Below are positions 9,310-40,641 of a DNA stretch of 64,000 bases, piece by piece. Position numbers and translations under genes: made by a program. The stretch is from the NCBI GenBank assembly GCA_947646735.1, contig CANTFK010000938.1, positions 62,001-126,000 of the forward strand. The letters are read 5' to 3'. Every line of letters begins with the position of its first letter. The first letter of the stretch is position 1. The notes under the pieces were generated by a model. The model was not told the DNA's origin. It saw only the letters and a program-made list of their open reading frames with translations, and searched no databases. Origin of the DNA: Peronospora farinosa. Taxonomy: Eukaryota > Oomycota > Peronosporomycetes > Peronosporales > Peronosporaceae.

Positions 9310-10950
9310 CATTCTCAGGCCCAGCAAACCCCGAAGCACCTACAAGACACGCTGATCGCCTCCTGAGTGCGAAAATTCGGAACGAAGCAGCCTTGGGTCA
9401 TCTTCGTACCGAAGTTGCAGATCGAGAGGCGGAGCGCGATCTGGTCATCTAGGATCGAGATTTACTTTGTTCGCATTTGGCAAAGTTGGCTACGGGCTTA
9501 CTTCCTCCTCCGACCAGCCTTCCCGCTTCTTCCAATTCCTTGTCACCAAATCGCAAACGTGCTTCGTCTTCACCGGCTTTGGACTTTCCCTGCAAACGTC
9601 CCCGCAGCACTTTGGTACTTCTACTTAATCTGCGACTTCGGAGCGATCTGGTTCTCCAACGCGATCTTGTACCTTAACGCGATCTGGTACCCTGACGCGA
9701 TCTAATACCTCGGCGCCATCTGGTACTCCGGCGCGATCTGTAAAGTCGGTGCGATCCATTATTACAACGCGATCCAATGTTCCGTCGAAAGCAATAGGGA
9801 AACGCAAAGCTTGTCCCTCGCCTTCCATTGAATCTGGGTACGAAGGATGGTCTTCTAATCCTGAAGACGCTACACTTGCTGCTCTCTCCGGATCGCGTTC
9901 AACCGCGAGGCGTCGCACCACCGAGACGAAACTCTCTGGCAACACCGGATCGTCTCAGTCTTCTATCATAATTCACAATGGTAGCCCACCATCCAGAAAA
10001 TCGCCAGTATTGAATCCTGATACGCCTCCTAGCCTTACGGCCAAGATTGCCAAGGTCGACCTTTTTGGCGAACCTTCTAGCGACTCGAACGGAAAGATTA
10101 GCGTTTCCAGTGACATTCGTGAAGATATAAACCAGTTGCTCACTCCCGCTCAGTACGCCGATGTGCCGGATCTCCAAAAATCACGTGATGTATGGATCCC
10201 AGGATATCGTGAGCGAAAGCCCCGATCGTCGACTCAGGTTGCTCCGTGGTCCGCCCGACGGGTCAGTCTAACCAGTGTTGCGATATTGGAAGTGGAGTTT
10301 TTTTATCGACACTTGTCCCGACCGAAAGGGTATCCCTTCACCCCTCAAACTAATCTCAAGTCTCTTCTTGATTCTGAGTGGGTCCCACGACTAATTGCCC
10401 CAGCACAAGTTACTGCGCTTTATGATCAGGAACCGTGGAACGTCACTTGTCGACCGATCACTCCGATCTCTTTACTTCTGACCGGTTGGTTTAAGAATTT
10501 GGCAGCGACTTATCTCGAATATGAAGAACGACATCGGCAAGCTTTGTGGGACGCAACCCACTTCCTGTATATCTCCAGTGAACATTTGAAGGAATATCCA
10601 GAGCTGGAACAATTTTGTTAACAGCTCAAACAGCGTCGATCGAGATCTAGACCACGCTGGAAAACTATTATTTGCGTTATTCTTTAAGGGATGATCGAAG
10701 GACATTGCGGTCTGGACATTTTGATGGATCCTTATTTTTTCCACTTTCCTGTATACGCGAAAGTGCGACCATGGTAGCCTGGTCTGGATTGTGAGAAGAT
10801 GATTATCCCTAACTTGGCCACCGCGCTATCGATGTTGCACTCTGCCGAGCCGTAGAGAAACCAGTATCGAATTTCGATTGAAGATCACCCGGGATGGCTG
10901 ATCCCTCGTCTGGCCGATAAGTTTAACCTCTCGCGATCCGATCTAGAGTA
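9310..10950 (+). pseudogene. Antisense ORF of family C (between integrase and 3' end)
   Basis: A plus-strand reading frame runs against the gag-pol direction of family C, in the env position. It starts around 9310 with a charged helical segment (LRTEVADREAERDLV, then RDLLCSHLAKLATG). It passes a TAG near 9451, a frame change near 9625 and an Arg-Ser repeat region (units TRSGTL, TRSNTS) built on an 18-bp DNA repeat. The longest open part is 9749-10621. This contains a basic KAIGKRKACPSPS stretch and a globular-looking C-terminal part with YRHLSRPKGYPFTPQ and LEYEERHRQALWD. The same frame continues past stops at 10619, 10684, about 10775 and 10849 to about 10950. The total would be near 540 residues. 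I recognise no domain. The basic and RS-rich parts suggest a nuclear protein, which is inference. Confidence 0.6.
9643..9786. repeat. 18-bp tandem repeat, eight GCGATC-led units
   Basis: GCGATC (one unit GCCATC) recurs at 9643, 9661, 9679, 9697, 9715, 9733, 9751 and 9769, exactly 18 bp apart. On the plus strand this encodes a six-residue Arg-Ser repeat inside the family C antisense frame. Confidence 0.9.
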
Positions 10951-11428
10951 GCTGTTTGCGATCCGATTTCATTTATTCAGCATTTAATACAATTTCACTA
11001 TTTCGCTTCATTCTTCTGGTCGTCCTTGAAATTGTCTTCTTGTTTTTAAGCCTTTTCAGCCGCGATCCGGTCTTTCAGACCTTCGAGTGACACTCAGATT
11101 CACATATATCCTCGTTCCCCCAGCTATACAGCCATCTTGTACAGTCATTTCCACTCTCCGTAAGCGAAATAACCAATTCACAAATCTTCAGCTTTTTCCT
11201 CTTCATGAGACTGCATAACTTCGAAACGATTATGGCGAACTTGTTCGCGCTCAAATTCCTGCAACAATGCCCCACAATTCAGATCCGCCTCATTAATTCA
11301 CGATGGATCGGTATAACCCTTCCAGTAAACCTTAAATTGACGATGTACCCGACCAAAACGAGTTTTTTTCCGGATCGGATATCCTTAACATTCTTTACTT
11401 CTAACTCGTTATCTCCAAGTTGCCGCTC
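10951..11428. other. Family C 3' region without recognisable gene
   Basis: GATC-rich element DNA lies between the antisense frame and the end of the integrase frame. There are only short open frames on both strands and no LTR recognised. Confidence 0.4.
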
Positions 11429-12671: not shown

Positions 12672-12787
12672 CCACTTCGTAATTACTTGCGATCTCGGTG
12701 CATGACTTCGCTTCTTCCATACTGAAATTCGTTATATCACCAATCAGAAAATCTTTAGGTTGGCGATTCAACGTTCCTCATCTTGAG

Positions 12788-13414
12788 CTAGTCGTATACG
12801 GTCACTTCGAATTTGCCGCACAAATTACTCTTGCAAAATCTCGGGTGGTTGACGTCTTCTCCTAGTTGATCTGATAATCGCAGCAACTTATCCACCGATT
12901 TGGTCTGTTTCGACCTTAACAACTTATCCAGTCTATTAAGGGTAATAAGATCTTGGCAATCTTCTTCCGAAGTGATGATCACACTTTTCCTGCTGCAAAG
13001 CAGTACTCGCCAGTCGATCGGCACGTGGTTCCAGTCGCGCTTCATATGTAAGAAGTCATGGATCAGCCACGATCGAAGCTTCTCCATTGCCTTCTGTCGC
13101 AACAACTGCAGTCCAGGATCCTTGCAATCGATTTCACCCCGCATCTGTCGAATCACTAGGTTGGAGTCGCCACAAATGATATCTCGTCCCCTAGTCTGAT
13201 TCTCCAACAGATCAAAACCTAATAGTAAACCCCTATATTCAACTTCGTTCACTGTTAAGTCCTTTGCATATTCCGATGCAGCAGCCACAATAGTCCACTC
13301 AGGAAGTTTCCATATTATCGCACTGTATGATCCACCCTTTCGCTTGGTTCGTGCCGATCCATCGAAACTGACGACCAAGAGACTTTCATCTTCTTCCACC
13401 GTAGGCGGTGGCAT
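12788..13414 (-). pseudogene. Family C second, archaeal-type RNase H
   Basis: A 208-residue minus frame matches the extra RNase H found downstream of the normal one in dual-RNase H gypsy elements. Catalytic positions are visible: Asp in LLVVSFDGSA, Glu in TVNEVEYRGLLLGFDLL, Asp in ICGDSNLVIRQMRGE, and a His/Asp pair in HMKRDWNHVPID. The fold type differs from the resident gypsy RNase H just upstream, which uses a DAS-type motif. The C-terminal third (after about residue 125) diverges and may be frame-shifted, since the usual N-x2-AD-x-LA ending is altered. The domain lies between RT/RNase H and integrase, the expected place in this element type. It would degrade the RNA strand during reverse transcription. 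Confidence 0.75.
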
Positions 13415-14198
13415 ACTTAAAAGTCTGCCTTGGCTGTTTCCGTGGAGCGATCGCGATCAACACTTCATCAACTTCTTTACGGGGAGTTACACTTGCAGCC
13501 AGGGCACCGAATATCTCATCTTCGTCCTTTTCACATTTCGTGATCTCCAACGTCCAAGTCGATAATAATGCGAACCACCTACCTAGCCTGCCATTGAGAC
13601 CGGAGGATTGCACCAACCAGGCCATCGTTGAAAAACGCGTAAAAATTTTAATCTCTCGCAAGACTAGCCTGCAATAACATATATCTAAAATCCGAAGTAA
13701 AGCTAGTATCTCCTTCTCGACCATTTCGTAATTGATCTCATTTGGCTTCAGCGTTCGGCTTGTAAACGTAACTGGCCAATATGTGCCATCATTCTCCTGC
13801 AACAAAGCTGCTGAAACTGCCCATTTACTCTCGTATACAACAATTATTGGAGGTCGATCTGAATCGAAATGTCTGAGGATCGGGGTATTAGCGATCTTGG
13901 CTTTCAACATGGTAAATGCGATCATTGCTTTTTCCCATCGGGTCCGACCTTCTGGATCTGGATCGCCCCCAATATCGGGATTTAGATCTGAATCGCACCT
14001 GGTTGCGATATTCGAATCCAATGCATTTATCTTATCAGAACAGCGGATTTCGTGGAAATATGCTTCCCGTGATTCATGTAGCACTGACGCATGAATCGCA
14101 AAGTCTTCGACAAATCGACTATAGTAATTCAAACTTCCCAAAAACAATTGCATCGATCGCAACGTTCTTGGGAGCGGAATATTCACCAGCGATCCCAA
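13386..14198 (-). pseudogene. Family C RT connection and resident RNase H, degenerate
   Basis: The frame starts in the RT thumb/connection region (MQLFLGSLNYYSRFVEDFA, then WEKAMIAFTMLKAKI). It continues into the resident gypsy RNase H (IIVVYESKWAVSAALLQE, FTSRTLKPNEINYEMVEKE, then LGRWFALLSTWTLEI). The first catalytic Asp of the family (YTDAS or VCDAS) is replaced by Glu in VVYES. That fits the loss of activity expected when a second RNase H takes over. It overlaps the next frame by 29 bp in a different phase. Confidence 0.8.
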
Positions 14199-14299
14199 AT
14201 CCTTTGGATAAGCTTCAATTTCTGCAAGTAAGACTTGATGACCCAGAAAATCTACCTTACGTCGTCCCCAAAAACTTTAGCGAGACTGATCGACAACTT

Positions 14300-15260
14300 C
14301 AATTCACTGCATACTTCTAGCAATCGCTTTACCTTATCATATTATATGGCCCACGATGTTGCTGGAATCAGTATGTCATCAATATATGACCTTCGGCCGA
14401 GCACAGATGGCTTCTGGCTAGTATTTGGTTCGCCTTCAGTGAATACATCAATCAGCTTTGGCGCCCCGTTACCATATCGGTGGAGTCGAATGATCCTGTA
14501 GCAATTGCACTTGGATCCGTACCGATCTTAAGGTATCCATACAGTGCATTATCAATTAGACGTTGGTAAATCTGCGGAGCGTTTTTTAGCCCAAACGGCA
14601 TTCGTAACCTCTCTAACAAGCCTGACGGCGTGATAAAAGCAGAAATCATCCTTGCTCGCTCGGTCATTTCCACGACCCAAAATCCACTGACCATATCCAA
14701 CGAACAATACCACGTAGCTTCATCCATATCTTGCAATAATTCGCTAATTAGCGGCATAGGATACACCATCAATCTCGTGAGTTGATTCACCCGCCGATAG
14801 TCAATACATAACCGGATGTCGACACCATTCTTTTTTATAATTACCACAATCGGCGAAGCCCATGGTGATGTCGACGGCTGGATAATCCGGGCTGATAGTA
14901 ATCCTTTGATTAGGTCAGCTAACTTCTCGCGAAATTTGGGAGCGACCGGTCGTACTCGTTGTGCGATCGGGTGTGCCCCACCAACATCGATATCACATAC
15001 TGCTCCTCGAGCTGCAGGAGGAAGCGCATTTCCTTTGCCAATGAGTAAGTGCCGGTTCGCCCAAATCAATTGCCGTAGACCTTCTTGGTCCTTGGTTAAA
15101 GGAACTCCCGGATCGCCCACTTGAATATCATCAATCGTAACTTCTTCGGTGAATGACACAATCTCAGGCAAAACAGCCATATGCTGATCCACGTCTTCGG
15201 CATACAATTCACCACTCTCGTAATAATACATCAAGTCTTCAGGCTTCATCTTTACACTTC
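14300..15260 (-). pseudogene. Family C reverse transcriptase (3' part of the split frame)
   Basis: The frame at 14452-15249 carries RT motifs: SARIIQPSTSPWASPIVVI, RLCIDYRRVNQLT, WYCSLDMVSGFWVVEM (first catalytic Asp), and FGLKNAPQIYQRLIDNAL. After a frame change the catalytic YIDD lies at about 14380 (YIDDILIPA). The upstream end continues exactly into the family A insertion point. The codons before and after the inserted element join in frame with the segment ending at 23326. This is therefore a pol gene cut by a later transposon, in addition to its own point damage. Confidence 0.85.
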
Positions 15261-15265
15261 CTCCG
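15261..15265. repeat. Target-site duplication CTCCG, left copy of the pair 15261-15265 / 23321-23325
   Basis: CTCCG flanks both ends of the family A element exactly. Five-base duplications are standard for Ty3/gypsy integration. Its presence proves that this element moved here as a unit. Confidence 0.95.
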
Positions 15266-15724
15266 TGTATTGGGGCACCCTCTGACTATACTGATTACAG
15301 TATAGTCTACTTTCACTGATTACAGTGAAAGCAGGTGCCTCAAAACCTCACGTACACGTGAGCAGAGGAAGCTTATCAACTAAACAAACGCTTAGTTGAG
15401 AGGGAAAAGAGAACTGTATTTAATATAGTTAGCTATCTTAATACAACTAATCTGTTATAACCTATGTCAACTATATTAAACTACAACTATGTATGTTGAC
15501 AACTTTCCCTCCACTCATTGCGCGCGTCCATCGGTCATTGGTCAGCGCGTTGGTTGATATGATGGCCCATATCAACCAATGAGAGGGCATCTCCAACTTC
15601 AAGGAGATCTAGGAACAATATAATAAGAAAAGGTAATATTGTCAAAATATTATTAGTTATAATAGTATTTTTATTGACACTTCATATAAGTGTCAATATT
15701 ATGTAACGGGCTCACCCCGTTACA
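15266..15724 (-). repeat. Family A 3' LTR
   Basis: On the plus strand it runs from TGTATTGGGGCACCC to CCCCGTTACA. It contains two short palindromes near the left end (ACTATACTGATTACAGTATAGT region, and TTTCACTG with CAGTGAAA), plus a TGACACTT hairpin near the right end (about 15674-15697). It is nearly identical to 22862-23320. Confidence 0.95.
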
Positions 15725-15742
15725 TCAACCCCCCCCTCAACC
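15725..15742 (-). other. Family A polypurine tract
   Basis: On the minus strand the sequence immediately upstream of the 3' LTR reads GGTTGAGGGGGGGGTTGA. This is the expected priming site for plus-strand DNA synthesis. Confidence 0.85.
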
Positions 15743-15826
15743 AACAGTCATGTTTAGTGATTATGGGAAATGAGCACTTGTTGGGTTCTCTTTTGCTCCA
15801 ACAATTTTCACGCTATGACAAAGTGA

Positions 15827-17435
15827 ATGCGCGTCGCTGCCACGGCAGCCAAGAACTCGGCTGCACGCCTGTGTGCAGCCGCTACTGAGGCTTCACAGCC
15901 TCAGCCAGCAGACACTAATGTGTCTGCTGGAAGTCTACGTCAGCCTGCAACGCCTGTTGCAAGCTCACGTAGCGCTTCGCTGCGTGAAGATGTTGACCCA
16001 GAGTTAGTCGTTGACTACTCTGATGAGTGCGGATGACGCATCCGACACAAAGCCGCCTGTGTCACTCCCGGGCTCTCCCCGGGGTGATACCTCGTCGTCG
16101 AATGTTACGAAGAGGGATCGTGATACATTGGGTGATTCAATGTACCGTGAAATGTTCGGGTCGTCTGATGAATTAGACGACTAGCCAAACGAGTCGAAGG
16201 ATAGTGACTCGGGTGGGGACCGTAAGGGTGATCTCAGTACTTCTACTGACATCAATGCTTATAGTGTCGGTACTTCTGTTGACACTAATGCTCGTGGTGT
16301 CGGTACTTCTGTTGACACCACGCAGGAGGCTTTAGACCGCAACGTATTGCGTCTTGCTCCTGATCGCAAGCCATGGATGCTATCCAAGCATCTGCTTGAT
16401 CGTTGGTCTGGAAAGACCAACGAACGGTTCCCCATACCGTTGTTTGATGCGTCAAAGCTTCACGGCCTTGACGCCAGTGCGAAGAACTTTCGCACTGAGA
16501 ACGATAATTACATCGATGTGTTCCTTAAAGCTTGATGGTATGGCCCATACAAGAAGCGTAAGGCTGACGCGTTCCTCCAATTTTGGAATGCGTTTATCAT
16601 CAACGTTTTAAACGTTGGGAAAGAGGCTTGGTTTCAAAGGTCTTATGCTAGCCGCAATAAGTTTGAGAAACGAAGTACTTCCGGTGCATGCTATCGTTTG
16701 CACCGGTTATCTAGAGAGGCAGGCCTGTTATGCCTCTCTTGGGGCGACCCATGCCCGGGGTGCCTGAGCACCTCGTCAAGAGCGCCTAAGGAGGCGTACC
16801 TCCTTACTGAGCCCTGGTGGAGGGCTCGCATCTCTTCTGAGATGCGTGAAGGGATTGCTACTTTGCAATCCCTTTACGAACGCGCTGGGCGCTCGTTTTC
16901 CGATGGTCCTTCACCATCGGGTGCCCCTTGTCGTACTGTTCGACAAGGCCGGGAACGTCGGCCATCAGTTGGGCCCGAGGTTCCCAGCTATCCGCCGAAG
17001 GCGGATAGCCACGCCACCGGACGAGATAACTCGTCCGACGTCCCTTCACCTCGCGGTGCTTTAGTAAGCGTTCCACGAGGAAGCGCTTCCCACCATGGGA
17101 GTCCACCAGCGGATGCGGTGGTGGAGGAAAAACCCTGTCCGATTCTTTCATCGGACTTGGCTGCTGAGTTAGACGGGTTTGCCCGTGTAACTCGTGAGCT
17201 CTGTTGTGATGTTGATCACGAACGGGATAAGCGTCGCCGCTTAGAGGACATCGTGCGACAGCTTGGGTTTGACCATGAGAAGTCTCGGGCAGACAATGCT
17301 GTCGCACTGTGAAAGATTGAACGGCGACTTCATTCTCTAAGTAACGAGCTGGCGACAGCTCGTCAGGAGATCGTCCAATATCATGGGAAGATCTCATCTC
17401 GACACGACCAGATATCGACTACAACAAGAATCTGA
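15827..17435 (+). pseudogene. Antisense ORF of family A
   Basis: A plus-strand frame faces the gag-pol genes and fills the space between the 3' LTR and integrase. The first part (15827-16036) is Ala/Ser/Gln-rich and overlaps an ATG at 16023 in another phase. From 16023 one frame runs to TGA 17433 through three stops (TAG about 16182, TGA 16533, TGA 17310). In order it holds a Ser/Asp-rich acidic part, a conserved-looking middle domain (KPWMLSKHLLDRWSGK, then YIDVFLKA and FLQFWNAFIINVLNVGKEAW), a Pro/Ser/Arg-rich linker, and a charged coiled-coil-like end (RDKRRRLEDIVRQLGFDHEK, then LHSLSNELATARQEI). The last 190 codons overlap the chromodomain and integrase frames on the other strand. The N-terminal part also survives in the fragment at 46990-47159. 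Function unknown. Confidence 0.6.
16858..17397 (-). CDS. Family A chromodomain (C-terminal part of pol)
   Basis: A minus frame begins four bases inside the end of the integrase frame, in a different phase. After an unconserved 90-residue linker it contains PPPPHPLVDSHGGKRFLVE, then the chromodomain core (RRTSYLVRWRGYPPSADSWE, then LVEQYDKGHP). The aromatic and WE positions that hold a methyl-lysine peptide are present (YLVRW, DSWE). In chromoviruses this domain directs the integrase complex to marked chromatin. The phase change relative to integrase is either a frameshift mutation or a programmed shift. The same DNA is open on the plus strand as part of the antisense frame. Confidence 0.8.
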   Translation of the reverse strand: MRSSHDIGRSPDELSPARYLENEVAVQSFTVRQHCLPETSHGQTQAVARCPLSGDAYPVRDQHHNRAHELHGQTRLTQQPSPMKESDRVFPPPPHPLVDSHGGKRFLVERLLKHREVKGRRTSYLVRWRGYPPSADSWEPRAQLMADVPGLVEQYDKGHPMVKDHRKTSAQRVRKGIAK

Positions 17436-20400
17436 AAGGGATTCTAGAGAGTAATGGCTATCTTTGTCGTTCGAAGAAGCCGCGTATTGAACGTACGGAC
17501 GAAGACGTCCCACGTAAAACGTAGGATGCGTACGCATCCTGCGTGGCAACTCGATCGTGTATGCGTTGCCTAGGCGGCGCAATACACGAAACGGTCCGAT
17601 GTACTTGGGCAACAATTTATTGCTGCCCACGTTAGTCACTACATGTTTAGGTAGGTTTACTGTTGACAGTAAAACTAAATTAACTTTAATAAATGTTTGA
17701 GCATTTGCCCTTCCATTATTGTCTGCGTTTCGCTTTTTCTTATCCACCGCTTCTGCGATGGAGTCTTGCACGAAACGGACTACCGCTTCACGAGTCAGCA
17801 GGAAATCCTCAGCTGACTCGTTGCTTTTGGCTGCAGTGCATTGTGAATGCACTGCAGAGATATCGGCTACTAATTCAGTGAGAACATTACTGTTCTCACT
17901 TGTGATACCTCGGACGATGCTGATATCTTCAGCATCGTTGTCAGTAAGAGCGTCATCGCTCTTACTTTCTTCCTCTTCACCGAAGTCGAATGGTACGACT
18001 TCGGTTACTTTCGCGTCGACCATAACGTCGTCGCGTGATGAGCAAGAGCCGGATTGGTTCTCGCTCGAGCGAGTCCCTCCCCCTCTTAAATTAATGTCAT
18101 CCTCTACTAAGGTGGGGACACGTGGATGGCGAAGGCCATTCACGTAAAACGGTGTATGCGTCGTGGACGCATGCACTGAGTTGTTGATGGTGAATTCGAC
18201 CATCAACAAGAACTCACTCCAACTCGTAAACGAGTGGACGTACCCTCGAAGAATCTCTTCGAGGACGCGATTGGCGTGTTCAGTCTGACCATCGGTTTCT
18301 GGATGGTCAGAAGTAGACATTGTGAGCCGTGTTTTAAGTGTTTGGAACACGGAACGCCAAAACTCAGCCGTGAACCGGGGGTCCCTATCGGACACAAGTT
18401 CACGGGGTAGACCATGCAATCGAAAGATTGTATCGATAAACACTCGAGCACAGCCCTCTGCTGTGATCGACTTAGGTACAGCAACAAGATGTACCATCTT
18501 GCTGAACCTGTCTACAAACACGAGAATACCATTATTCCCGTGAGCGTCTTTGGGAAACCCAAAGACGAAGTCCATTGATACGGACTCCCAGCACTCTGCC
18601 GGAACAGGTAGAGGCTGCAATGGTGCACGGAGTGAAAGACTAGGCTTCACTCGTTGACACACCTCGCAAGCACGCACGTACTTGCGCACAAGCTTATACT
18701 GGCGTGGCCAGTAAAAGTCGCGACTGACCGTGAGGTAAGTCTTCTAACGCCCTCGATGCCTACTTATTGGTGCATCGTGACATTCAAACATGATCCGTAA
18801 CCTGAGATCACGTTGTGGCGGTACAAAGACACGAGGCGTGTCGTTGTTGACGGCTGTGTAGTACAGTAAGCCGTCCCGCTGGGTATATCGATCTAGAGAA
18901 GATCGATACATGGCAGGCAAGCGCTTCTTAGCTTGCGTGGATGGGTCCTTGAGATACTCCATCAGGCGTACAAGATCATTATCTTGTGCGCACGCCCTTC
19001 TAATGTCGTCGAGTAAGCTCGAAGACAAGACGCTGGTACTCAGCGTGGCGACAGTGGTGTTCACATCACTGTCGGATTGCACAGTCGGCTCTAGGTCAGG
19101 CCGACGTGAGAAAGCATCGGCGACGACGTTAAGTCGTCCCGGCTTATACTCCACGGAGAAGTTGTACTCCGCGAAGAACGACAACCATCTCGCCATTCGT
19201 TGCGAGAGGTGTGGACTATTTACAGCCGTGCGTAGTAACGCATGGTCTGTATATACAATGAACGGTCTATCTTCTAAGAGATAGACGCGAAACTTAGCCA
19301 GTGCATACATCATGGCAAGGAGTTCCTTGTCATGCACCGGATAATTGCGCTCAGCCGGTTGCAGCTGACGCGATTGATAACAGACGACACGCTCGGCGCC
19401 GTCTGTATCATATTGCATCAGTGCGCAGCCGATTGCAAAATCACTGGCGTCACAGACCACATGAAATGGTCTGTCTTGATCTGCAATCGCCAGTATTGGC
19501 GATTGCATCAAGCTTTGCTTGATACGTTCAAAGGAACGCTGACAGTCAGCGTTCCAGTTCCACTTTACATTTTTCTTGAGTAAACAAGAAAAATGTACTG
19601 TCATTTTGGCGTAATTGCGCGAGTACTTGTGCAAGTACGCCGCTAGCCCAAGGAACTTCCTTAGTCCCTTGACATCGACTGGCACTGGCCAGTCGGTGAT
19701 CGCCTTGATCTTTTCTGGATCAGGGCGTACGCCGTTCTTTCCGACGATGCACCCAAGAAGTGGTATTTCGCTAGCTCCGAATATACACTTCTTGAGGTTG
19801 GCGTACAACTTATGCTCGCGCATAAGAGTAAGAACCTTACGGACGTGGAAGTCATCATCGAAGTAACTCGGTGTGAATTCGCGCACCGGTCTCAATAGAT
19901 GTGAAACACATCTATTGAATGTGGCTGGTGCATTACTAAGCCCTTGCGGCATCACCAACCATTCCCAGAGCATACCACTGGGAGTGCTCACTGCTGTGTA
20001 CGGGATGTCCCGTTCACGCATTAGGATCTGATAGAAACCATCCATCAGATCCACGGACGAAAAGATGGTACTCTTAGACATACCATCTATGATTACGTCC
20101 TTTCTCGGTATCGGCATTTGCGCCGGTATCGTTGCAGCGTTCAACTTATTGAACGCGTGTACTATCCGCCACCCTCCTGTGGCCTTGCGCACACAGAAGG
20201 TCGGAGAGCTGTGAGGTGAAGTTGTCTCCCTCACACGGCCCGCTGCTAGGCGATCGGCAAAGAACTTGTCGATCGCCTCGACCTGTTCCCGAGGCAGTGG
20301 CCACTGCTTCATGACACAATATTTTGTTCCAGGAACAAGGTCGATCTCGTGTCGAGTACCTTTATCCTTAGGTAACTCGCACGGAACGGATTCAGGAAAT

Positions 20401-21503
20401 ACATCCTTGAATTCGACCAAATCCTTGTACAAAGGATTTGACTTCAGCGACTCCCAGGATTGCGATGTATATCGCTCAATCCGAGTCTTCTCATCAAGGA
20501 CACTCTCGTCCATTGATGAGCTGCTGAGAACCCGTTCGTTCTCGGCAAAAACTGTTGCTGACCGAATGTCAGTCATGTACTCGTCCTCTGCGACGAGCAC
20601 ACAGATCTGCTTGACTTTGCCACTACGCAGATCACGCAAGAACCTTTTAGGTTCTAGCGTAGGCAACTGAGTTATCTCCGAAGTTAACATTGGAGGCGCG
20701 ATCAGATCAAGCGTATAAGCGCCCACGTTTGATCCGTCATTAACCAAGACGTTTAACGTCTCGGTTACTTCCTGGGGACTTATTCCCTCAGGGCACTGGG
20801 GACTCATTCCCTCAGTGATCATTTCCTGGGGACTTATTCCCGCAGGCTCGATGGAACCTGTTCCATCGACTTCCTCTAGCTGTGGTGGCGCAACCACAGC
20901 GAGATCCTCTACAATCAACTCTCCAGTTGATCTAGGATTACCGTGTTGCCGCTTCTGGGCAACCGGTTTACTCTTCGGTGAATGCTGCCCTCTAGGCGAG
21001 CATTCATGTCCCGGTCCACTCGACTTATTCGAGTGGTGGACCTTCGGCGCTGCCTGTGCTTGTGCACAGCCGCCGGCAGCTTGCTCCACAGCGTGACTGT
21101 CTGTCACGCTGAGTTCTTGTGCAGTCGTACTAACGAGCGAACCACAAGTGAGGCCATCACACTCACTCGTAATACATTCACACGCTTTTGAACGCTCCAA
21201 GACGTTCATCAGATGGCCATATGATGAACAAGCGGCAGGCATCTTCACGGTTCGATGCTGCCAGCTGACCCATGGCTCGTACCTTCTGAGCCATGGTAAT
21301 CCTAGGATGACATCAAATTTGTCATCCAGATCAAGTACGATGAAATCATCATCGTACTTTTTGCCTTCAAGCGTGTAGTGAATTCCCACTACACGTTTCT
21401 TTACTGTTACGGATGCGCCAGTTGCAAGGCGCACCGTCATCCTCGTTGGAGGGGTCTCGCGCTCAACATATTTGAGCCTACGATCATCTAGCGATTGGCC
21501 CAC
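17394..21503 (-). pseudogene. Family A pol: protease remnant, RT, RNase H, integrase
   Basis: One frame runs from 21503 to 17394 with a single TAG at 18744-18746. In order: the C-terminal half of the protease (FIVLDLDDKFDVILGLPWL), RT (SSPTFCVRKATGGWRIVHAF, IFSSVDLMDGFYQI, MPQGLSNAPATFNR, YFDD), RNase H (VVCDASDFAIGCALMQ, HDKELLAM, YTDHALL), a zinc-binding region, and integrase with all three acidic residues (SMDFVFG, LVSDRDPRF, DGQTEHANRVLEE). The protease D-S/T-G site, expected upstream of 21503, is not found in any frame up to the end of gag. After YFDD the chain jumps to DFHVRKVLTLM, about 20 residues shorter than family D. The TAG follows HRGR, where relatives have Glu. Confidence 0.9.
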
Positions 21504-21676
21504 ACATGTTCTTTGTCACTTCGATCTTCAATGTGATGAGGGATACCTCATCACTGGGAGCGGCAACACACAGTGACTGTGTGTTGGGAGCAACCTTCGT
21601 CAAGAGTCCCGCGAACTCTCTTGACATTGCTGGATCAGTAGGGCGCTCCGCCCCTACTGACCCCGACCGTTTTTTT

Positions 21677-22847
21677 ATGGTCCACCACGTTGTTGCGATT
21701 TCGCAGCAACGTGGGACCCACGTCTCTGGCCCTTCTTGGCAGACGGTCGATCGTCACTCCCAGTGTTACGAGACACTGGGCGTGGGGCACTACACTCATA
21801 AGCGTAGTGGCCCAACTTCTAACAGCTATTGCATTTTTGCAATCGCTTGTACCCTGGAGAGCGAGGTGGCTCGCTCTCTACATAGGAGAGGTCCATTGGT
21901 TCTGGACCTCCGCCCTCCTGTCGTCTCGGTGGACGATAGGACCCCGAGTGGACGTGAGTCTGTTGCAGGCTAAAGTCCTCCTGTTCCGCTGCAGAGATCG
22001 CTTGATCCAGCGATTCTAGCTCCAAGCGGAACAGGTGGGTCTTGACAGGACCATCTGTCAGACCCTTGATGAATACAGTAACCTGCGTGTGTTCATCGAT
22101 TGGGTTCAGTACGATACACCTAACGAGGTATCGTACGTGTTGGGCGTAAGCGTGTATATCACGCCTACCCTGTTTCAAATCCAGGAGCTCAGCCCGAGCC
22201 CTGAATTTGGCGCGAGGCGGTTCAAACGTGTGTTTGAGCCGCGCCTTGAAGACGTCATACGTTGGGAAAACGTATGGGTCGTGCAGTTTGAGCCCTAAGG
22301 CCCAAGCTTTGGCACGTCCTGCCAAGTTCGACATGGCGAACTTGACCTTCATCGCATCGTCATCGATGCGACGAGCCTCAATGGCATCGTCGAGCTCGAC
22401 GAACCATCTCAACAAGGAGTCACTTTCGACTGCCTTGTACTTGGAAACATCAATTTTCAAGGACTCGGGTCGACGTGTATACGTCGACCCGGCAGCAACA
22501 GCACTAGCCTGCTGTTGTCTCAACAGTTCAGACTGTTGAGCACCCTGCTGCATCGACAAGTCAGCTTGTTGAGCGCCTTGTTCTCTCAACAGTTCAACCT
22601 GTTGAGAACCTTGCTCCTCTAGCTAGGTGAGTTTCTTTACAACTTCGTCAAGTTCATGTTGTATGAACTTGGCGATGGTTGCATGTTGGTCGTCTCCGCT
22701 AAGAGAGAGCAACATGGCACCAACGGCAGGGTTGCCGATGGTTTTAGCCATACGCTGAACCGCATTCCATTCGAAGTCACTCAAATGGCGGAAATCATCA
22801 CCCGCCGATTCCATAGCGGATGGTGCGGTGGTCGCTGAACGGACCAC
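21677..22847 (-). pseudogene. Family A gag with zinc knuckle, two in-frame TAG codons
   Basis: The frame starts at 22847 (MVRSATTAPSAME), is interrupted by TAG at 22623-22625, continues through a Gln-rich repeat (units of LLREQGAQQ type) and the retrotransposon gag core (SDSLLRWFVELDDAIEAR, LAGRAKAWALGLKL, and the RRDIHAYAQHVRYLV segment). It meets a second TAG at 21819-21821, which falls inside the CCHC zinc knuckle (CNSC, stop, KLGHYAYEC). It then runs on to a stop near 21676. Both TAGs are single-base changes from Gln or Lys codons. Gag forms the particle and binds RNA. This copy would make only truncated gag unless the TAGs are read through. Confidence 0.85.
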
Positions 22848-22860
22848 GAAGTGCTACCAG
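22844..22860 (-). other. Family A primer-binding site
   Basis: On the minus strand, two bases after the 5' LTR, the sequence reads TGGTAGCACTTCGTGG. It starts like a complement of a tRNA 3' end ...GCTACCA (initiator-methionine type in many Ty3 elements). The family B element has the same first eight bases. Confidence 0.75.
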
Positions 22861-22861
22861 G

Positions 22862-23320
22862 TGTAATGTGGCACCCTCCGACTATACTGATTACAGTATA
22901 GTCTACTTTCACTGATTACAGTGAAAGCAGGTGCCTCAAAACCTCACGTACACGTGAGCAGAGGAAGCTTATCAACTAAACAAACGCTTAGTTGAGAGGG
23001 AAAAGAGAACTGTATTTAATATAGTTAGCTATCTTAATACAACTAATCTGTTATAACCTATGTCAACTATATTAAACTACAACTATGTATGTTGACAACT
23101 TTCCCTCCACTCATTGCGCGCGTCCATCGGTCATTGGTCAGCGCGTTGGTTGATATGATGGCCCATATCAACCAATGAGAGGGCATCTCCAACTTCAAGG
23201 AGATCTAGGAACAATATAATAAGAAAAGGTAATATTGTCAAAATATTATTAGTTATAATAGTATTTTTATTGACACTTCATATAAGTGTCAATATTATGT
23301 AACAGGCTCGCCCCGTTACA
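22862..23320 (-). repeat. Family A 5' LTR
   Basis: On the plus strand it runs from TGTAATGTGGCACCC to CCCCGTTACA. It is nearly identical to the left LTR. The differences seen lie in the first ten bases, at CTCCGAC against CTCTGAC, and in the AACAGGCTCG block near the right end. Confidence 0.95.
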
Positions 23321-23720
23321 CTCCGGCTAAATTACATTCGTCGTTAATAGTCGTAGTATCACTAGCTTGCTCTTGTTCTCGCAGATCGCGATCCAGATCG
23401 GCAAGATCGCGGTCATCAACTACCGGATCGGCCAGATCGCGGTCATTAATTACCAGATCGGCCAGATCGCGGTCATCAACTACCTGATCGGCCTGATCGC
23501 GGTCATTGATTGCCAGATCAGCCAGATCGCGGCTATTAATTGTCGGATCGCGCTCCATACATTTCTGTGTGTAGTTATTGTGAGTGTAATTTTCTTCACC
23601 CCACGGCCCTTGCGCGTGATCGACATTTGACATCCCTTTAATCGCATTGATCACCCATGGAGATTGCGCTAGTTGTTCACTTTCATCTTCGATCACCCAG
23701 TCGTCTACATTTTTTGTCAC
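23321..23720 (-). pseudogene. Family C pol, 5' part of the split frame
   Basis: A minus frame (23316-23720 as it stands) encodes an acidic linker between protease and RT, dominated by Asp-Arg-Asp-Leu-Ala repeats. The frame is cut by the family A insertion. Removing that element joins the codons for CNLAG directly to GSVKMKPEDLM at 15265. No enzymatic motif lies here. It is a pol linker. Confidence 0.8.
23405..23554. repeat. 30-bp tandem repeat, five units
   Basis: Units start with GATCGCGG at 23405, 23435, 23465, 23495 and 23525, exactly 30 bp apart. On the minus strand they encode a ten-residue acidic repeat in the family C pol linker. The period is a multiple of three, so repeat-number change keeps the frame. 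Confidence 0.92.
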
Positions 23721-27142: not shown

Positions 27143-28240
27143 TGTGGTGGAGTGGGATTCGCAAAATTGCTGATGCGATCCCAACTCTCAACTGGCGCCG
27201 GACGACCGACTAACGGAGGGGGTACCCCGATTCCGTGTGTATAGCCTTCCTCACCTTGTGTACCCGTCGGTTGGGCGGTTTGCTCTCTTCTCAGTGGACT
27301 TGAGTCGATGTTGATCCTAATCGGGTTAGGGATAGGGGTTTGGTGATCTTGTGGAAATCTTCACAAGATCGACCGAGTACTTGTTTGTTGATCGTACCAA
27401 TAGATCTTAATAGTCCAATAAAGCGAAGCTTGAATCTTCTGACCACTTTTGAAGAACCTTCTAACCACTTGATCCGTCCTGAACTTGCTTGCCTTGCCCT
27501 TACTTGTTATTTCTGCGTCCGATAGCAGTTGAGTTGTTGTGTTGAGAATCCCTTCACCTGGCCAAAACAATCCAGGGTGCACTTGTAGTCGATATTCTTG
27601 GCGTCGGGAGGCCAAAAATCCTGCCCGAAATAGAGAAGTCGACACATGTATTTAAAAGCAAATTAAACTTTGTTTAATGTTAACCAATCAAATACCAAAA
27701 CCTATGATCTTGACTATCTGTAGTCCAGGATCTATTGCCACGTATCGCCCAATCGAAAAAATCAGATCTTGTCATGTGGTCCACTCCAATATCGCCGCGA
27801 TCTGGATCGCTACCTCGATCGGATCGCGGTACTTATTTTAGCATCGGATCGCGGTACTAACAATTAGTATCGGATCGCGGTCCGCCGGATCACGACTTAC
27901 CACCTTCACCGTTCCTCGAAACATGTGAAATGGTCCATTTATATGATATGTCATGTCCACCTCATTTTAGTCTTCCATAGTGACGTGATCTACACCAGAC
28001 CGTCTTCCACATACTTGGACCTCAATTCTCCTTCTTGGCGTTCGTGTTCACGCGGATCGCCATTGAAAATACCGTAGATCGCAGCTGCGTAGTACTAGAC
28101 CGTAATTAATTCAACATAGAACTGCGAGCACCACCATTCACTGTTTTCCATTCCATTTGCAACGTATCACAACTTCTTCTGCTGGATTGCGATTCATCAA
28201 TTATGACCATTTCGAACTTAAACGAAAATATGCGATCACA
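27143..28240 (-). repeat. Family C 5' LTR
   Basis: The boundaries are inferred: TGTGGTGGAG next to the primer site at the left, and GCGATCACA at 28240, giving TGTG...CACA inverted ends and about 1.1 kb. It contains three GGATCGCGGT repeats (about 27820-27880). Immediately to the right, at 28241, family B sequence starts abruptly inside a coding frame, so 28240/28241 is the insertion junction. No matching left LTR was found. Confidence 0.65.
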
Positions 28241-29329
28241 CTATGCCAAGTTCAGTCTTTCGCTTCGCCACAGATCCTTGTCCGGTGGAAGAGAAACCCA
28301 AAAAGTTTGAGTCTTGGGAATTGATCGACGCGATGCGCGTCGACGTGCCTGGGTTGGTGGCTTCTTACGAGCAGAAGCACCAGCTGCACTCGCTCTGCTA
28401 GGTCCTGATGGACTAGCAGGGGCGGTGTGACGAGAAGGAGCTGGGGGTAGGTTACCACCCAATATTTCCCTCGCACGCGTCATAGCGAAGCTGATTCGCT
28501 ATGACCGCTGTTTCACTGCATCTGCATGCGGTTTAACATGGCGCAGAAACTCTGCTTTGTATTCGTCTATTGTTTCGTTAGAACGCAACACGACGGAGAT
28601 AGAAAAAGCACGACCTAGTGCTTTGCCCTGTCTTTTCCATGATGGAAAGACGCTTTAGATCTTATTAGCGTCAATAGTGGCACGCTTTAGAAGCGTCGCA
28701 CTATTTACACGCCAGCGTGGCAACTGTGGTGGCGGTGGCATTGGTGGCAAGCCACCAGTCACTTAGCCGCCCTCGCGACGGCGCGCTTGTGAGGCCGACT
28801 GTGAAGTCGAAGGGGCTTTTTGCTCACCCTCGTCAGAGTCTGACTCACCATTTTGGATTATCAAGACGTCAGATGTAGGTTTAACAGAGGGGGACGATTT
28901 AGAATCGCCGACCTGCTGTTGAGACGCGGCGCTCGTTGGCGCAGACGACGAGGGATGACTCTCGCTGTCATAAAGCATGGAAGCTTCCTGAAGGTTGGGT
29001 GTCTCAAATGATGGGGAAAAATGTCTTAGCAGAACACTGTGCTCATGAATACTTTGGTGTGATGGAGATGGTGAACTGTCATTGTAGACAACAATGAGAG
29101 ACAAGTCTTCATCCGCACCATAGTAAGATGGATCAGTGCTCTCTGCTGACAAGCTGACATTAGATGCCGGCGTTGTCACATAGACACTAAGCGACGGCTG
29201 CGGATTATTGCGGCGCGTGCGCTTGGTGTTGGTCTGAATTGGCTTCTTTGCAGGCTCCCCATCAGCCTTTCCACGTTTCGGTGGCATCGTCTCTTTATTC
29301 GATGTTTTACATGATGTGAAAATCGTCAT
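28241..29329 (-). pseudogene. Antisense ORF of family B, copy 1
   Basis: This minus frame lies next to the family B 3' LTR, which is in plus orientation. It is antisense to that element. The first ATG is at 29329, 15 bp from the LTR. A second (MPPKRGKADGEPAKKP) is at 29284. Part one (28763-29329) has a basic N-terminus followed by a Ser/Asp-rich region. After a stop the frame continues as a middle domain (TLLKRATIDANKI, VFPSWKRQGKALGRAFSI, DEYKAEFLRHVKPHADAV, RISFAMTRAREILGGN) and a Pro/Ala/Ser-Arg linker. It ends abruptly at 28241 where family C is inserted. Stops near 28500, 28655 and 28760. A second copy at 39700-40641 has closely similar protein sequence. Function unknown; a basic nuclear protein is my guess. 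Confidence 0.65.
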
Positions 29330-30253: not shown

Positions 30254-30410
30254 TGTAACGGGGTTACACGACGGTTGGATATCCATTCCGAAAGTTTACA
30301 ATTAGAGTTTCCCTATATTGCATTTAATGCATTTTTGAACCCCTCTATGAGGAAAGAGAGTTAAAATCACCTGATTAAACGCATTAAGTTGCGCTAGATA
30401 AAAAATCTGC
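30254..30410 (+). repeat. Family D 5' LTR, truncated
   Basis: It starts TGTAACGGGGTTACACGACGG. The block CCATTCCGAAAGT and the block TTGCATTTAATGCATTTTT also occur in the 3' LTR from 36745. Similarity ends near 30410. Confidence 0.75.
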
Positions 30411-31921: not shown

Positions 31922-31927
31922 GTTAGT

Positions 31928-35096: not shown

Positions 35097-35750
35097 AAGG
35101 AATATGCGGATGCTAAAGGCAGAATCTGTATTAATGATTATGAGGTCGGAGAACAAGTATTACTTAATGCTAAAAACCTACCTACCAATGTAGTATCTGC
35201 TGTCTTTGAAACCAAATTGCATCCGCGCTTCATCGGACCCATTACGGTCGTGGCCAAGAAGGTCTATCGTATACGCTTAATTTACCGCGCAAATTGCGTA
35301 CACATCCTGTGTTCTACGTCGGCATGCTGAAACCTTATCGGGATCCGTCCCAAGCAAACGCTAAGGCGCTCGCGACGAGCTCATCGGCATTGTCGCGGGA
35401 CGAAGCATCTGCACCAACAGGTCAAGCTGACCCTGTATTCGGGTTCGGCTCTCTTCCAGGGACTCAAGACGGGAGTTCATCGTCTGCCTCTCCTCACGAA
35501 GGGTCCGCACCTCTTAAACAAATTCGGCATGAGCTTGTGCCGATACACCGGCCTCCTCCGGCTTTGCTCGATGCGCAGAAAAACCTACAGTTCCATGTGG
35601 AGCTTCTACTGCAGAAGCGTCGCCGCCATGGTCAAAACCAGTATCTGGTAAAGTGGAGGGGTTATCCCGAATCGTGGAATTCATGGGAGTTTGAGACTCC
35701 CCTTCGGCAGGACTGCCCGTACGCCGTGAGCGTTTTTAAAGTCGTGCGCA
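35097..35750 (+). pseudogene. Family D integrase C-terminus and chromodomain
   Basis: After a frame change the DNA encodes the post-core segment (about 35150-35290) and then the frame 35294-36007. That starts RTHPVFYVGMLKPYRDPS, runs through a Ser/Ala-rich linker, and ends in a chromodomain (FHVELLLQKRRRHGQNQYLV, KWRGYPESWNSWE). Residues after about 35750 are probably beyond the true protein. Confidence 0.8.
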
Positions 35751-36128
35751 GGCCAACCTGTTGGCGAATATGCTTCATACCAATAACAGAGGAAGTGTAT
35801 GCAAGCTCACGGCAGGAGCCTGCTGTACACTCGTGGCTACAGGCGTATTTGATGTACGGAAATCTTGAATGGATGGCGCATAGCGCACGCAATTGCCCTC
35901 GGGACTTTAACTGTGCGTATTTAAAAAGCATCTTACATTCCAGACGAACGTCTGTCACACTGCCACTGGCGCAAAGAGCCCACATGCTGGTCAAACGCCG
36001 CACATAATGTGTCCAGTTGACAAAGGCACTATCGCGTTCATTTCCGTTTCGCCTGCTAACAGCAAGACAGGGATCCCTTTCATGAAAGGAACAGATGCAC
36101 TACGTACTTTCCTGTCCAGGCGTGCCTT

Positions 36129-36656
36129 TTATTGACTTGTATTAGTTATGACTGGTTCCACATATCTTTGGCGAAGAGCCACTCTCGCAGCGAGCTCCTC
36201 GTGCGTAGTAACTTCAGGTCCTGTGGACCCAAAAAATATGTCTAGCAAATGGCTTGTGGCCTCCTTGAGACGCTATTCGACAGATCGGGGATCAAAGACA
36301 TAGTCTAAATGTCCTTTGTGCTTGGCCATGGCTTTTTCTTGGTATGCGGAGCTTACCGTCGCTTGTAGTTGCTGTAACTGTTGCTCGTCGAGCGGGTTTG
36401 TAATCGGAGAAGGGGGTATTTCGCCAGGCGCCGAGCGCATTGAGATTACCGTTTCAGCAACACCTCGTTCTCGGAACGGATTAGGTGTACGTAAAGGTTC
36501 GTCTTCGCCCTTAGGACTGGGCCTAGACTCATAGTCTTCTAGGAAGCTGGTTTCACTCCCGTAATCCACAGCTACCTCTAATCCCCCTTCAAAGAGAACA
36601 TTGAGGGCCTTAGGCTCATGACCAAACGGTGTCATTTGCGTGTACACTATGAACAA
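36129..36656 (-). pseudogene. Antisense ORF of family D
   Basis: A minus frame opposite to gag-pol, between the chromodomain and the 3' LTR. It starts MFIVYTQMTPFGHEPKAL at 36656, about 90 bp from the LTR. It has a Pro/Ser/Arg-rich part (NPFRERGVAETVIS, PGEIPPSPITNPLDE) and a Gln-rich helical part (EQQLQQLQATVSSAYQEKAM). It passes one TAG (36273-36275) and continues in the same frame (LKEATSHLLDIFFGSTGPEV) to a TAA at 36129. About 175 residues. I recognise no domain. The position matches the antisense frames of families A, B and C. Confidence 0.55.
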
Positions 36657-36744
36657 CCGTTAGGTTTGATGTTCGTGTTTCGCAACCTCTTTAGAGATTA
36701 TGTCGAGTGACGTTATGTGGTACCGTCAGTCTGGTGAGGGAGAG

Positions 36745-37500: not shown

Positions 37501-37619
37501 TTTGCGTCGTAACGTATGCTTATATACATCACGAAGAAAAACAATTTGGATATCAGGATACATATACGCCGCAGCCTTGGACCTGTGTACTCGAGCTTAC
37601 TGATAATATGCTGGTCAAG

Positions 37620-38216: not shown

Positions 38217-38221
38217 TCAAG

Positions 38222-39699
38222 TGTCTTGTTGTAATATCAGAATAGGCAACGTAGAAAGATCGTGCTAATTGTGCGCTGCTCGTCTCGAAACTCGGACGTG
38301 ATCATGAAGTAATTCAATTGTATGCTTTGGATCTAAAAAATGCAGTGCTGGCGAAGGCGAGTTGCATACGATGCTACGAATCGAAAGACGGCTAATTCGT
38401 CGATTTACTAATCGCTGCTACAGATTTACTTATGACTATAAGGCCACACAGGTAGGACAGCATCCGGAATCGCGTCGCGGCATCATCACCTCACCAGAAT
38501 CTTCTTCGTTGCGGAAGATTCAGCTCTGATTTGCAAAGCGAGGCTGTACAGACTGCCATCGTCTTGCTGAACGCTGATGTATCCACGGCATTTTAGCTTT
38601 TACCAGCTAATGTAGCTGCAGCACCTTTGGCTACGCTTTTTTTCGTGTACTTGAAAGCAGGTCCAGCGTCTCGCAATGGAGAGAAGCAAGAGCAACTTTT
38701 TATATAGCGTAAAAGATTAGTCAAAGTGTGATCGTACCAATGTTAGTTTGGACTCTATGTCGGCACATTTGTCTGCTAACCTATTTCTTCCAGCCCGTGC
38801 GGAAGGCCAATCGGTGCAAATTCAACGAGGGTAAAACGTATTCTTTGGGAGCCACGAGCTGTTCTTACACAAGAACTGGCCAGTAAGTTTTTCAAAACTT
38901 ATTTGAGTTGGGTCAAAGCACTTCAAAGCTTAATCGTAAAAAATAGTGGAGTTGGAGACAAGCCGAACGTAAGCTGATGTTGTTTGGCTGAAATTATGAA
39001 CATCGTCTTGATGACGTTTTGCATCCTGACTGCCGCTCAGCTGTCAGTGAGCATATACTCTCAAAAATTGTTGTTCTTGCGATCGTTGCAAAACGTAACT
39101 TAGTCACTGCCGAAAATGAAAGAGGTGCTGGTCGTATTTAAAGGCTCAACTCCACATGTCACCTGCGAACCGCAATCTGTTTACGCAGCAAGGTCCAGTG
39201 CACGATCACGTGCAAAGCTGTTACATTTGTTTTGCGCGGCTCGCAGCGCGTGTAGCACGGGACGGAAGTGGCGATCCAATAGTTTTTTTGCGGATTTGGC
39301 TTAAACTCTTGACGTCGATGAAATGGCTGCACATTTATACTTGATGCAATCCTCCCATCCCATCTAGCTACGTAGCCCCTCAAGCACCATTCTGCGCCTT
39401 AGGGTCCTGCAGAACTTAAGCGTTAAATTAAAAGTAGCTTTAGGATGGCTCACAGAAGTAAACAGCTTTGCGATGGTTCTCGAGCGCTTGAGAAGTGACA
39501 CAAGTGAACCAATACGTACATGTCCTCCCAGTGTAGAACGAGACAGATTAGCAGCACTTTCTTGTCAGACTATGGAAAATCGAGTATCAAGGCTAAAAGC
39601 TCAGTTTCCTACAAAACAGCCCATCCGAAGCGGGCCACCGAATACTCCGCTTCCGTTCTCCTACTAGCGTAATAAGTGACATGTTTTACAGAGGTCGCT
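38222..39699. other. Intergenic or old repeat, no gene seen
   Basis: There are only short open frames on both strands (60-75 residues, overlapping one another at 39116-39383), with no recognised motif. It may include the lost 3' LTR of the family B element that follows. Confidence 0.35.
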
Positions 39700-40641
39700 G
39701 TGGTACCCCTGTCCCCGGTAACTGGTACCCCTACTGGAAACGTTGTCCCTGATGACCCTCGTCTGACCCTTGGGGGATCTTGCGAGCCTTATCATAGTCA
39801 TTCCCTTGAGGGAGCGACCTGAATTTCTTTCTCCTATATTACTATATCCTCTGGGCCCCGTTTATTCTATCACTTCTCCACAGACGCTTAGAGCGTGCCA
39901 GTATTGACGATAGTAAGCTCTTAAGCATCTTTCCATCATGGAAAAGACAGGGCAAGCACTAGGTCGTGCTTTTTCTATCCCCGTCGTGTTGCGTTCTAAC
40001 GAAACAACCGACGAATACGAAGCAGAGTTCCTGCGCCATGTTAAACCGCATGCAGATGCAGCGAAACAGCGGTCACAGCGAATCAGCTTCGCTATGACGC
40101 GTGCGAGGGAAATATTGGGTGGTAACCTACCCCCAGCTCCTTCCCGTCAAACCGCCCCTGCTAGTCCATCAGGACCTAGCAGAGCGAGTGCAGCTGGTGC
40201 TTCTGCTCGTAAGCAGCCACCAGCCCAGTCACGTAGATACGCTACGCGTCGATCGGTTCCCAAGAGCCGAAACTCTTTGAGTAACCCTTCTACTGAACAA
40301 GAATTTAAAGCTTTGCTTCACATGGCGATTGGCCAACAACCTTCCAACAATCAAGCGTGTGTTCCCACCCGCATCCACCAGAACAGGTGGCGTTCGATAG
40401 AAGCGTCTATTAAGCCCAACTATACGCGGCTGCCTATCCTGTAGTCGTTAAGTCGCATGTGGACATCGCTGCGCTGAAGAAAGAGGTGGCGAATATGTCG
40501 AGTCAAGTCTCGCGTTTGACTTCGGATCTAAGCTCCGTACATACAAGGGATCGTCAGGGGTATGACCGCCTGAATACCCGTTTTTACATCTTAGAGCGAC
40601 TGGTGATGAGAGACCCGCGTCCAACGCGGAGTCCTCCTTGA
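39700..40641 (+). pseudogene. Antisense ORF of family B, copy 2
   Basis: A plus-strand frame antisense to the family B element at 39700-46225. The middle domain starts near 39915 (IFPSWKRQGK), has lost one base relative to copy 1, then runs open from 39938: AFSIPVVLRSNETTDEYEAE, FLRHVKPHADAAKQRSQRIS, then the TRAREILGGNLPPAPSR linker. It passes a stop at 40442. A further plus frame (40459-40641) encodes a charged coiled-coil-like segment (IAALKKEVANMSSQVSRLTS, then YDRLNTRFYILERLV). Compared with copy 1, roughly 14 residues differ over about 105 in the middle and linker. The coiled-coil end overlaps the integrase C-terminal frame on the minus strand, as in family A. Confidence 0.6.

Follow-up and report, generated by a model that had tools for sequence, protein, structure and literature searches.

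We analysed a window of 64,000 nucleotides from the oomycete Peronospora farinosa (GenBank assembly GCA_947646735.1, contig CANTFK010000938.1, positions 62,001 to 126,000 of the forward strand); all coordinates below refer to positions within this window. The window contains copies of four families of gypsy long terminal repeat (LTR) retrotransposons, here termed A to D. In all four families, an antisense reading frame is present that runs opposite to gag-pol and lies between the integrase and chromodomain region and the 3' LTR. A preliminary description of the window had proposed such a long antisense frame in the env position of each family, and this is confirmed by intact genomic copies and by tblastn searches with these copies against the window. 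The coordinates given there were corrected from the tblastn alignments; for instance, the D gene spans 36635-35364 and not just 36129-36656.

The antisense gene of family A (15763-17521, plus strand) is matched over 15791-17521 in three pieces that cover residues 9-588 at 84-94% identity. It contains four in-frame stops and two frame changes, and its ATG was read from the sequence near 15763. Family B is represented by two copies. The first (28304-29287, minus strand) matches residues 1-322 at 59% identity with three stops, and it is cut off by the insertion of a family C element at about 28273. The second (39888-40749, plus strand) matches residues 194-481 at 52-68% identity and is spread over three frames, with two stops and two frame changes. 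The family C gene (9326-10924, plus strand) is truncated at its 5' end and matches residues 242-855 of 867 with six stops, and the family D gene is found over its full span (35364-36635, minus strand; residues 1-427) at 49% identity with eight stops. Compared with the intact copies, those of B and D in the window are themselves diverged (52-68% and 49% protein identity). The reading frames had been described as continuing coherently past scattered stops, and indeed the window copies match intact proteins across two to eight of them.

All four antisense genes are broken in the window, and uninterrupted versions exist elsewhere in the genome; the window frames are therefore more than chance. To find them, the genome (46.85 Mb in 274 contigs) was searched with the longest open pieces of the window frames as protein queries, which gave at least 149 matches for A, at least 153 and at least 150 for two pieces of B, at least 123 for C (query P0002) and at least 150 for D. 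Stop-to-stop frames of 905-973 amino acids were observed for C in 15 of the 30 best loci, and frames of 610-657 amino acids with a stop-free match for A in 11 of the 30 best loci. For B, frames of 500-537 amino acids occur in 20 of the 150 matches listed (among at least 153), and for D a frame of exactly 443 amino acids occurs in 30 of the 150 matches listed. Counted from the first conserved methionine, the full-length proteins of representative copies have 588 (A), 481 (B), 867 (C) and 427 residues (D). The start is well marked in B, where 104 of the 150 matches listed begin at query residues 23-25 and residue 25 is the methionine, and in D the start methionine is conserved at the beginning of the alignment. 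In four loci (L010, L047, L069 and L070), open reading frames (ORFs) with integrase and chromodomain were located on the strand opposite to the antisense gene. In A, B and D, the antisense gene and pol overlap, namely in the 3' part of the former and the chromodomain end of the latter; in C (L010) they do not. The arrangement corresponds to that of the aORF-3R genes, that is, an ORF between pol and the 3' LTR in reverse orientation to gag-pol, which is present in many copies and has a conserved protein product.

If the frames were not coding, stops would be expected at equal rates in all six frames. To count them, we took the 30 loci with the best protein match for C (from at least 123 matches) and likewise for A (from at least 149), including the window copy; openness was no criterion, although choosing the best 30 mildly favours intact copies. 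The B set consists of 9 of at least 153 matches picked for open frames plus the two window copies, and the D set of 9 of at least 150 matches picked in the same way plus one window copy, so that stop rates unbiased by the choice of open frames are those of C and A. Outside the overlap with pol, the antisense frame contains 43 stops in 26,613 codons in C (1.6 per 1000; other five frames 20-46), 20 in 11,842 codons in A (1.7 per 1000; other frames 25-111), 6 in 3,356 codons in B (1.8 per 1000; other frames 34-101) and 1 in 2,856 codons in D (0.35 per 1000; other frames 27-65). Stop rates are thus far from equal, at 0.35-1.8 per 1000 codons in the antisense frame compared to 20-111 in the others.

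Selection was estimated with two approaches. Pairwise dN/dS (nonsynonymous over synonymous divergence) was calculated according to Nei-Gojobori as a ratio of sums, where pairs with fewer than 80 codons, dS of 0.02 or less or saturation were excluded. The ratio was 0.37 for C (0.22 for its C-terminal part), 0.24 for D, 0.48 for B and 0.62 for A; the value for A is weak taken alone, as some other frames reach 0.69-0.70. Because transition bias lowers Nei-Gojobori ratios, we also computed an omega that is corrected for mutation type, with the expectation taken from each region's own mutation types and with variants split into those found in a single copy and those shared among copies. This test, for the antisense gene as well as for pol, considers only variant codons that differ by a single base from the most common codon. 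For shared variants, omega was 0.43 in C (z -7.2) and 0.18 in the C-terminal part of C (z -9.0), 0.18 in D (z -5.4), 0.39 in B (z -3.9) and 0.57 in A (z -2.5), and the repeat-rich linker of C was neutral (1.23). Single-copy variants were near neutral in C (0.84, z -1.9), B (0.76, z -1.8) and A (1.06, z 0.5), which shows that the constraint is strongest on older variants. This pattern is as expected of a gene that would be needed by replicating lineages and decays in dead insertions. Applied to pol (27 of 30 and 29 of 30 loci), this test resulted in an omega of 0.06 for the C tail and 0.33 for the A integrase; the antisense gene is thus constrained, but less so than pol. A low omega was also seen in the -1 frame. 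We read it as an echo, since this frame has its third codon positions in common with the antisense frame and, where pol does not overlap, carries 27-40 stops per 1000 codons. The preliminary suggestion of a retained antisense gene with dN/dS below 1 therefore holds for the shared variants (0.18-0.57), with only moderate constraint in A. We conclude that the antisense frame is almost certainly coding and under purifying selection, judging from its codons.

Relatives of the antisense proteins were found in other oomycetes. For C, the protein database was queried with the C-terminal part (residues 645-930); the full-length query gave one irrelevant protein, probably owing to the low-complexity repeat. 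Eight proteins were detected, of which seven are full-length relatives with 41-64% identity to the query domain, including proteins of Peronospora matthiolae and Phytophthora fragariaefolia (45% in Phytophthora). In the search itself, these two species and the ena/lgn records without a species name gave identities of 43-63%. In the eighth match (P0018, from ENA), reverse transcriptase and RNase H are fused in the same reading direction to the C-terminal domain of a C-type antisense protein; this may reflect a rearranged copy or an artefact of gene prediction, or the gene may exist in a sense-strand version. The search with D detected 55 proteins. The closest named relative, from Peronospora effusa, has 94% identity over 96%, and other named relatives from Peronospora matthiolae, Peronospora destructor, Hyaloperonospora arabidopsidis, Hyaloperonospora brassicae and Albugo laibachii have 34-54%, with 41% over 85% in Albugo laibachii. 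As Albugo belongs to a different order from Peronospora, the D-type gene is either old or was transferred. Relatives of the antisense genes thus exist in other oomycete genera as well, with both types in Peronospora, the C-type in Phytophthora and the D-type in Hyaloperonospora and Albugo. The deposited relatives in these four genera are named 'uncharacterized protein' or 'unnamed protein product', so that our results are also of value for annotation.

The antisense proteins match no Pfam family above the cut-off and give weak profile hits to coiled coils only. Among 10 antisense proteins, no bZIP family was found at E <= 0.05 and no TRP28 domain (PF04195), which also had no match at E <= 1 in the six frames of the genome. 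Membrane-type segments were not found in 11 proteins, where the highest Kyte-Doolittle mean over 19 residues is 1.59; the maxima for the four family proteins are 0.73-1.11. In D, AlphaFold2 predicts a helix at residues 369-414 that we read as a coiled coil (block pLDDT, the predicted local distance difference test, of 90-96 over 371-410) and a further part at about residues 82-250 (block pLDDT 66-93). Heptad periodicity exceeds that of shuffled sequences in A (0/200), C (1/200) and D (0/200). SUMO-interaction motifs were considered as well and dropped, as the loose pattern matched scattered members only.

The four families had been regarded as mutually unrelated, which is not supported by their integrases. 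The integrase core pieces of A, B and D are 56-66% identical, their tail pieces 42-48%, and the reverse transcriptases of A and D 60%. The integrase of C, in contrast, has only 23-33% identity to those of A, B and D. We thus distinguish two lineages rather than four: A, B and D form one pol lineage, and C is separate and Chronos-like. The pol tails examined of A, B and D have a chromodomain, and that of C is chromodomain-like: in L010, the PF00385 match reaches 24.0 bits and so falls just short of the Pfam cut-off (25.1), and the L029 piece has no such match. Family C also has two RNase H domains in adjacent frames (PF17917, E 3.9e-17; PF13456, also called RVT_3, E 6.2e-6). When the antisense proteins of these three families were compared by BLASTP, none matched another above noise (best E 0.34). 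The antisense gene thus evolves much faster than pol, which fits accessory proteins with changing host partners. Comparing the protein profiles with hhalign, we found a match between the coils of B and D (E 8e-6, probability 84). Without the coil, the B-D domain match has an E of 0.0022 and a probability of only 12.8, compared to E values of 0.21 and 0.36 for its two reversed controls and 0.052 for the best of 12 reversed controls. The N-termini of A and B match with E 0.015 and a probability of 3, without a reversed control, and every comparison with C has an E of 0.028 or worse. Close to their N-termini, A, B and D also have an acidic 'VDY' motif in common, which is no more than suggestive. 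With BLASTP at noise level and weak hhalign signals, a common ancestry of the four antisense proteins is not shown; the simplest view, which is not proven, would be one origin in A, B and D and another in C.

In the window, family A is on the minus strand. Its 3' LTR (15266-15724) has its U3 edge facing the antisense gene, and its 5' LTR lies at 22862-23320. The two LTRs are 98.9% identical (15265-15724 against 22861-23320) and flanked by a 5-bp target duplication CTCCG (15261-15265 and 23321-23325). Family A (15261-23325) is therefore a young insertion, nested in family C. Its sense pol tail with chromodomain (16861-17418, minus strand; PF00385, E 1e-14) overlaps the antisense gene, and so does the D pol tail (35210-36004, plus strand; PF00385, E 4e-10) with the 3' part of the D antisense gene. 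From the first conserved ATG to the inner edge of the 3' LTR, there are 47 nt in A, 85 in C, 107 in B and 111 in D (one locus each). In A, the edge pattern was found in 24 of 30 loci, 17 of which have a spacing of 44-47 nt. As these 47-111 nt leave little room for a promoter, we consider it likely that the antisense promoter lies inside the 3' LTR.

The edge pattern is an inverted repeat TGTAAC...GTTACA at a type of U3 edge that A, B and D share, and next to the repeat comes the complement of a purine tract. The repeat is located at 15702-15724 in the A 3' LTR and occurs at further A and D edges in the window (23298-23320, 30254-30268 and 50356-50370), including the D 5' LTR remnant (30254-30337, plus strand), as well as at the U3 edge of one B locus (L069), one D locus (L070) and 24 of 30 A loci; it is absent from the family C edge in L010. 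The repeat adjoins the start of the antisense gene and might be a binding site, or simply the integrase end. Family C itself is on the minus strand. Its pol part (12791-15264), which includes reverse transcriptase (PF00078), RNase H (PF17917/PF17919) and the second RNase H (PF13456), is interrupted by the A insertion. In its 5' LTR region (27457-28272), the upstream region of L087 and L010 aligns and ends at the U3 edge (L010:143, corresponding to 28272); family B homology picks up again at 28274, beyond this edge. At 46389-47195 (minus strand), tblastn detects what is left of an antisense gene from another A-like family (35-45% identity), and there is a second decayed antisense piece of an A-like element at 7431-7611 (minus strand).

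The rest of the window includes several other ORFs. A 727-residue ORF at 2438-4618 (plus strand) has a C-terminal 2OG-Fe(II) oxygenase domain. Host-type ORFs encode a TPR protein (51405-51947, minus strand), a WD40 protein with a Utp12 domain (54066-56663, minus strand) and a C2H2 zinc-finger protein (59067-60749, plus strand). At 62926-63441 (plus strand), a match to Exo_endo_phos just under the cut-off is perhaps the endonuclease of a non-LTR retrotransposon.

What could be the function of the antisense genes? As the best explanation overall, which we hold with moderate confidence, we propose a translated accessory gene under purifying selection that encodes a nuclear coiled-coil regulator and is driven from the 3' LTR. 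Antisense transcription would start from a promoter in the 3' LTR and would be followed by translation into a nuclear, oligomeric coiled-coil protein. This protein would consist of an acidic or serine-rich N-terminal part, basic patches resembling nuclear localisation signals, a conserved domain (predicted to be mostly helical in D) and a coiled coil. Most likely, it would act in trans, with either the integration complex or the LTR chromatin of the element itself as its target, and thereby balance expression of the element against its silencing, similar to the HBZ and APH proteins on the LTRs of human T-cell leukaemia viruses (HTLV). By analogy, we lean slightly towards such a trans-acting role in transcription or silencing balance, ahead of the roles as integration cofactor or silencing suppressor discussed below.

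Several observations weigh against this proposal. The HBZ-like role rests on analogy, no known DNA-binding domain was matched in the antisense proteins in the Pfam search, and the part of D predicted at about residues 82-250 has no match among solved or viral structures. The heptad periodicity of B is not beyond that of shuffles (19/200), and the basic patches, which were found in all 7 C relatives and in 10 of the 14 D relatives tested, were detected with a loose pattern that has no background control. Regarding selection, the signal in A is modest (z -2.5), and the B and D loci were selected for open frames. For the part shared with pol, the omega test detects no clear antisense constraint in A or B, and the constraint seen in D tracks pol. 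Furthermore, single-copy variants of D are constrained too (omega 0.31, z -6.6); this probably stems from old private changes of the diverged window copy in the set, which probably blur the result for B likewise.

Alternatively, the protein could be a cofactor of integration or nuclear import that binds integrase, the pre-integration complex or, together with the chromodomain, target chromatin, and that has no part in transcription control. We consider this possible but unlikely. The antisense proteins have basic patches and coiled coils, nuclear roles have been raised for plant antisense ORFs (PMC7264820), and chromatin may already be a target of these elements, given the chromodomains of the pol tails in all four families, with that of C just below the Pfam cut-off. 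Expression from the 3' LTR in antisense would, however, be odd for a particle component, and nothing ties the protein to integrase. More doubtful is a suppressor that counteracts silencing of the element by small RNAs or chromatin of the host. Small RNAs of Phytophthora infestans target gypsy elements in both orientations (PMC3522703), and fast evolution, with integrase cores at 56-66% identity while the antisense proteins lack a BLASTP match, would agree with such a role; yet fast evolution suits any accessory or disordered protein.

The remaining explanations concern the nature of the gene. Noncoding antisense RNAs exist in other elements (PMC7264820), and the antisense RNA alone could matter here, through double-stranded RNA or interference, with an incidental ORF. 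This is very improbable given the constraint at the codon level: the lack of stops is specific to one frame, omega on shared variants is 0.18-0.57, and relatives are recognisable as proteins at 45% identity in Phytophthora (C) and 41% in Albugo (D). It is still less probable that single copies have captured a host gene or contain a foreign element nested within them. Nested insertions do occur in the window (A in C and C in B), but the frame recurs in many copies per family, in 17 of the 24 A loci with a recognised edge the ATG is 44-47 nt away from the LTR, and no Pfam family is matched above the cut-off. An env-like gene, suggested by position only, can be dismissed given the antisense orientation and the lack of a hydrophobic segment (maximum 19-residue means 0.73-1.11).

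Returning to the regulator driven from the 3' LTR, we tentatively suggest that two distant oomycete gypsy lineages independently fixed such an antisense gene, that the D type predates the split of Albugo and Peronospora or was passed between them, and that the gene in C is joined to a doubled RNase H as in plant Tat/Retand elements. Retand is a Tat lineage with a doubled RNase H. The domain layout of family C, with a gypsy RNase H, a second RNase H and a chromodomain-like tail, agrees with that of Chronos from Peronosporales and Pythiales (PMC5348765), whereas A, B and D form another lineage. In Chronos, the two RNase H domains are a native and an aRNH-like one. The word 'antisense' is absent from the main text of the Chronos paper as far as available (PMC5348765), and no description of an antisense gene in oomycete LTR elements was found among the open-licence literature matches listed.

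Antisense ORFs at this site are known from plants, in Grande (gene23), RIRE2 and Retand with TRP28 (PMC7264820, PMC11963269). Descriptions of such ORFs in plant LTR elements go back to the 1990s, and the function of these ORFs was still given as unknown in papers from 2020 and 2025 (PMC7264820, PMC11963269). The product of the Grande gene is described as nuclear, and the gene as having its own upstream promoter (PMC7264820). Several Retand clusters have Smc- or TolA-type annotations beside TRP28 (PMC11963269), which we read as coiled-coil-like; the oomycete proteins also have coiled coils. Retand differs in that it belongs to a non-chromovirus lineage (PMC11963269), whereas the oomycete elements carry a chromodomain or, in C, a chromodomain-like tail, and no TRP28 was matched in the genome at E <= 1; the likeness to plant aORF-3R genes is one of description, without direct sequence comparison. 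In the filamentous plant pathogen Botrytis cinerea, the gypsy element Boty (BcGypsy1) carries the antisense extra gene brtn (PMC8365987, PMC7264820); this host is a fungus and not an oomycete, and the likeness is again by description. The preliminary description had suggested a new accessory system. The oomycete proteins indeed match no described family, but antisense ORFs at this site were already known from Grande, RIRE2, Retand and Boty. The oomycete genes occupy a comparable position and may work similarly.

In HTLV, a promoter in the 3' LTR drives the antisense genes, and their nuclear products HBZ and APH (APH-3 is also cytoplasmic) dampen LTR activity or viral replication (PMC10186651). 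HTLV-1 HBZ and APH-2/3/4 are thus products of antisense genes of an LTR element, as are the oomycete proteins, for which the promoter and nuclear location are inferred. HBZ differs in its C-terminal bZIP region (PMC10186651), for which the oomycete proteins have no match, and it is retroviral and unrelated. The oomycete genes add an independent set to these systems, with many copies, constraint at the codon level and proteins without a match to described families. If independent fixation is true, an antisense-encoded nuclear coiled-coil protein would be a recurrent solution in plants, oomycetes, fungi and deltaretroviruses, and the parallel to HBZ suggests that an antisense regulator driven from the 3' LTR may be a recurring strategy.

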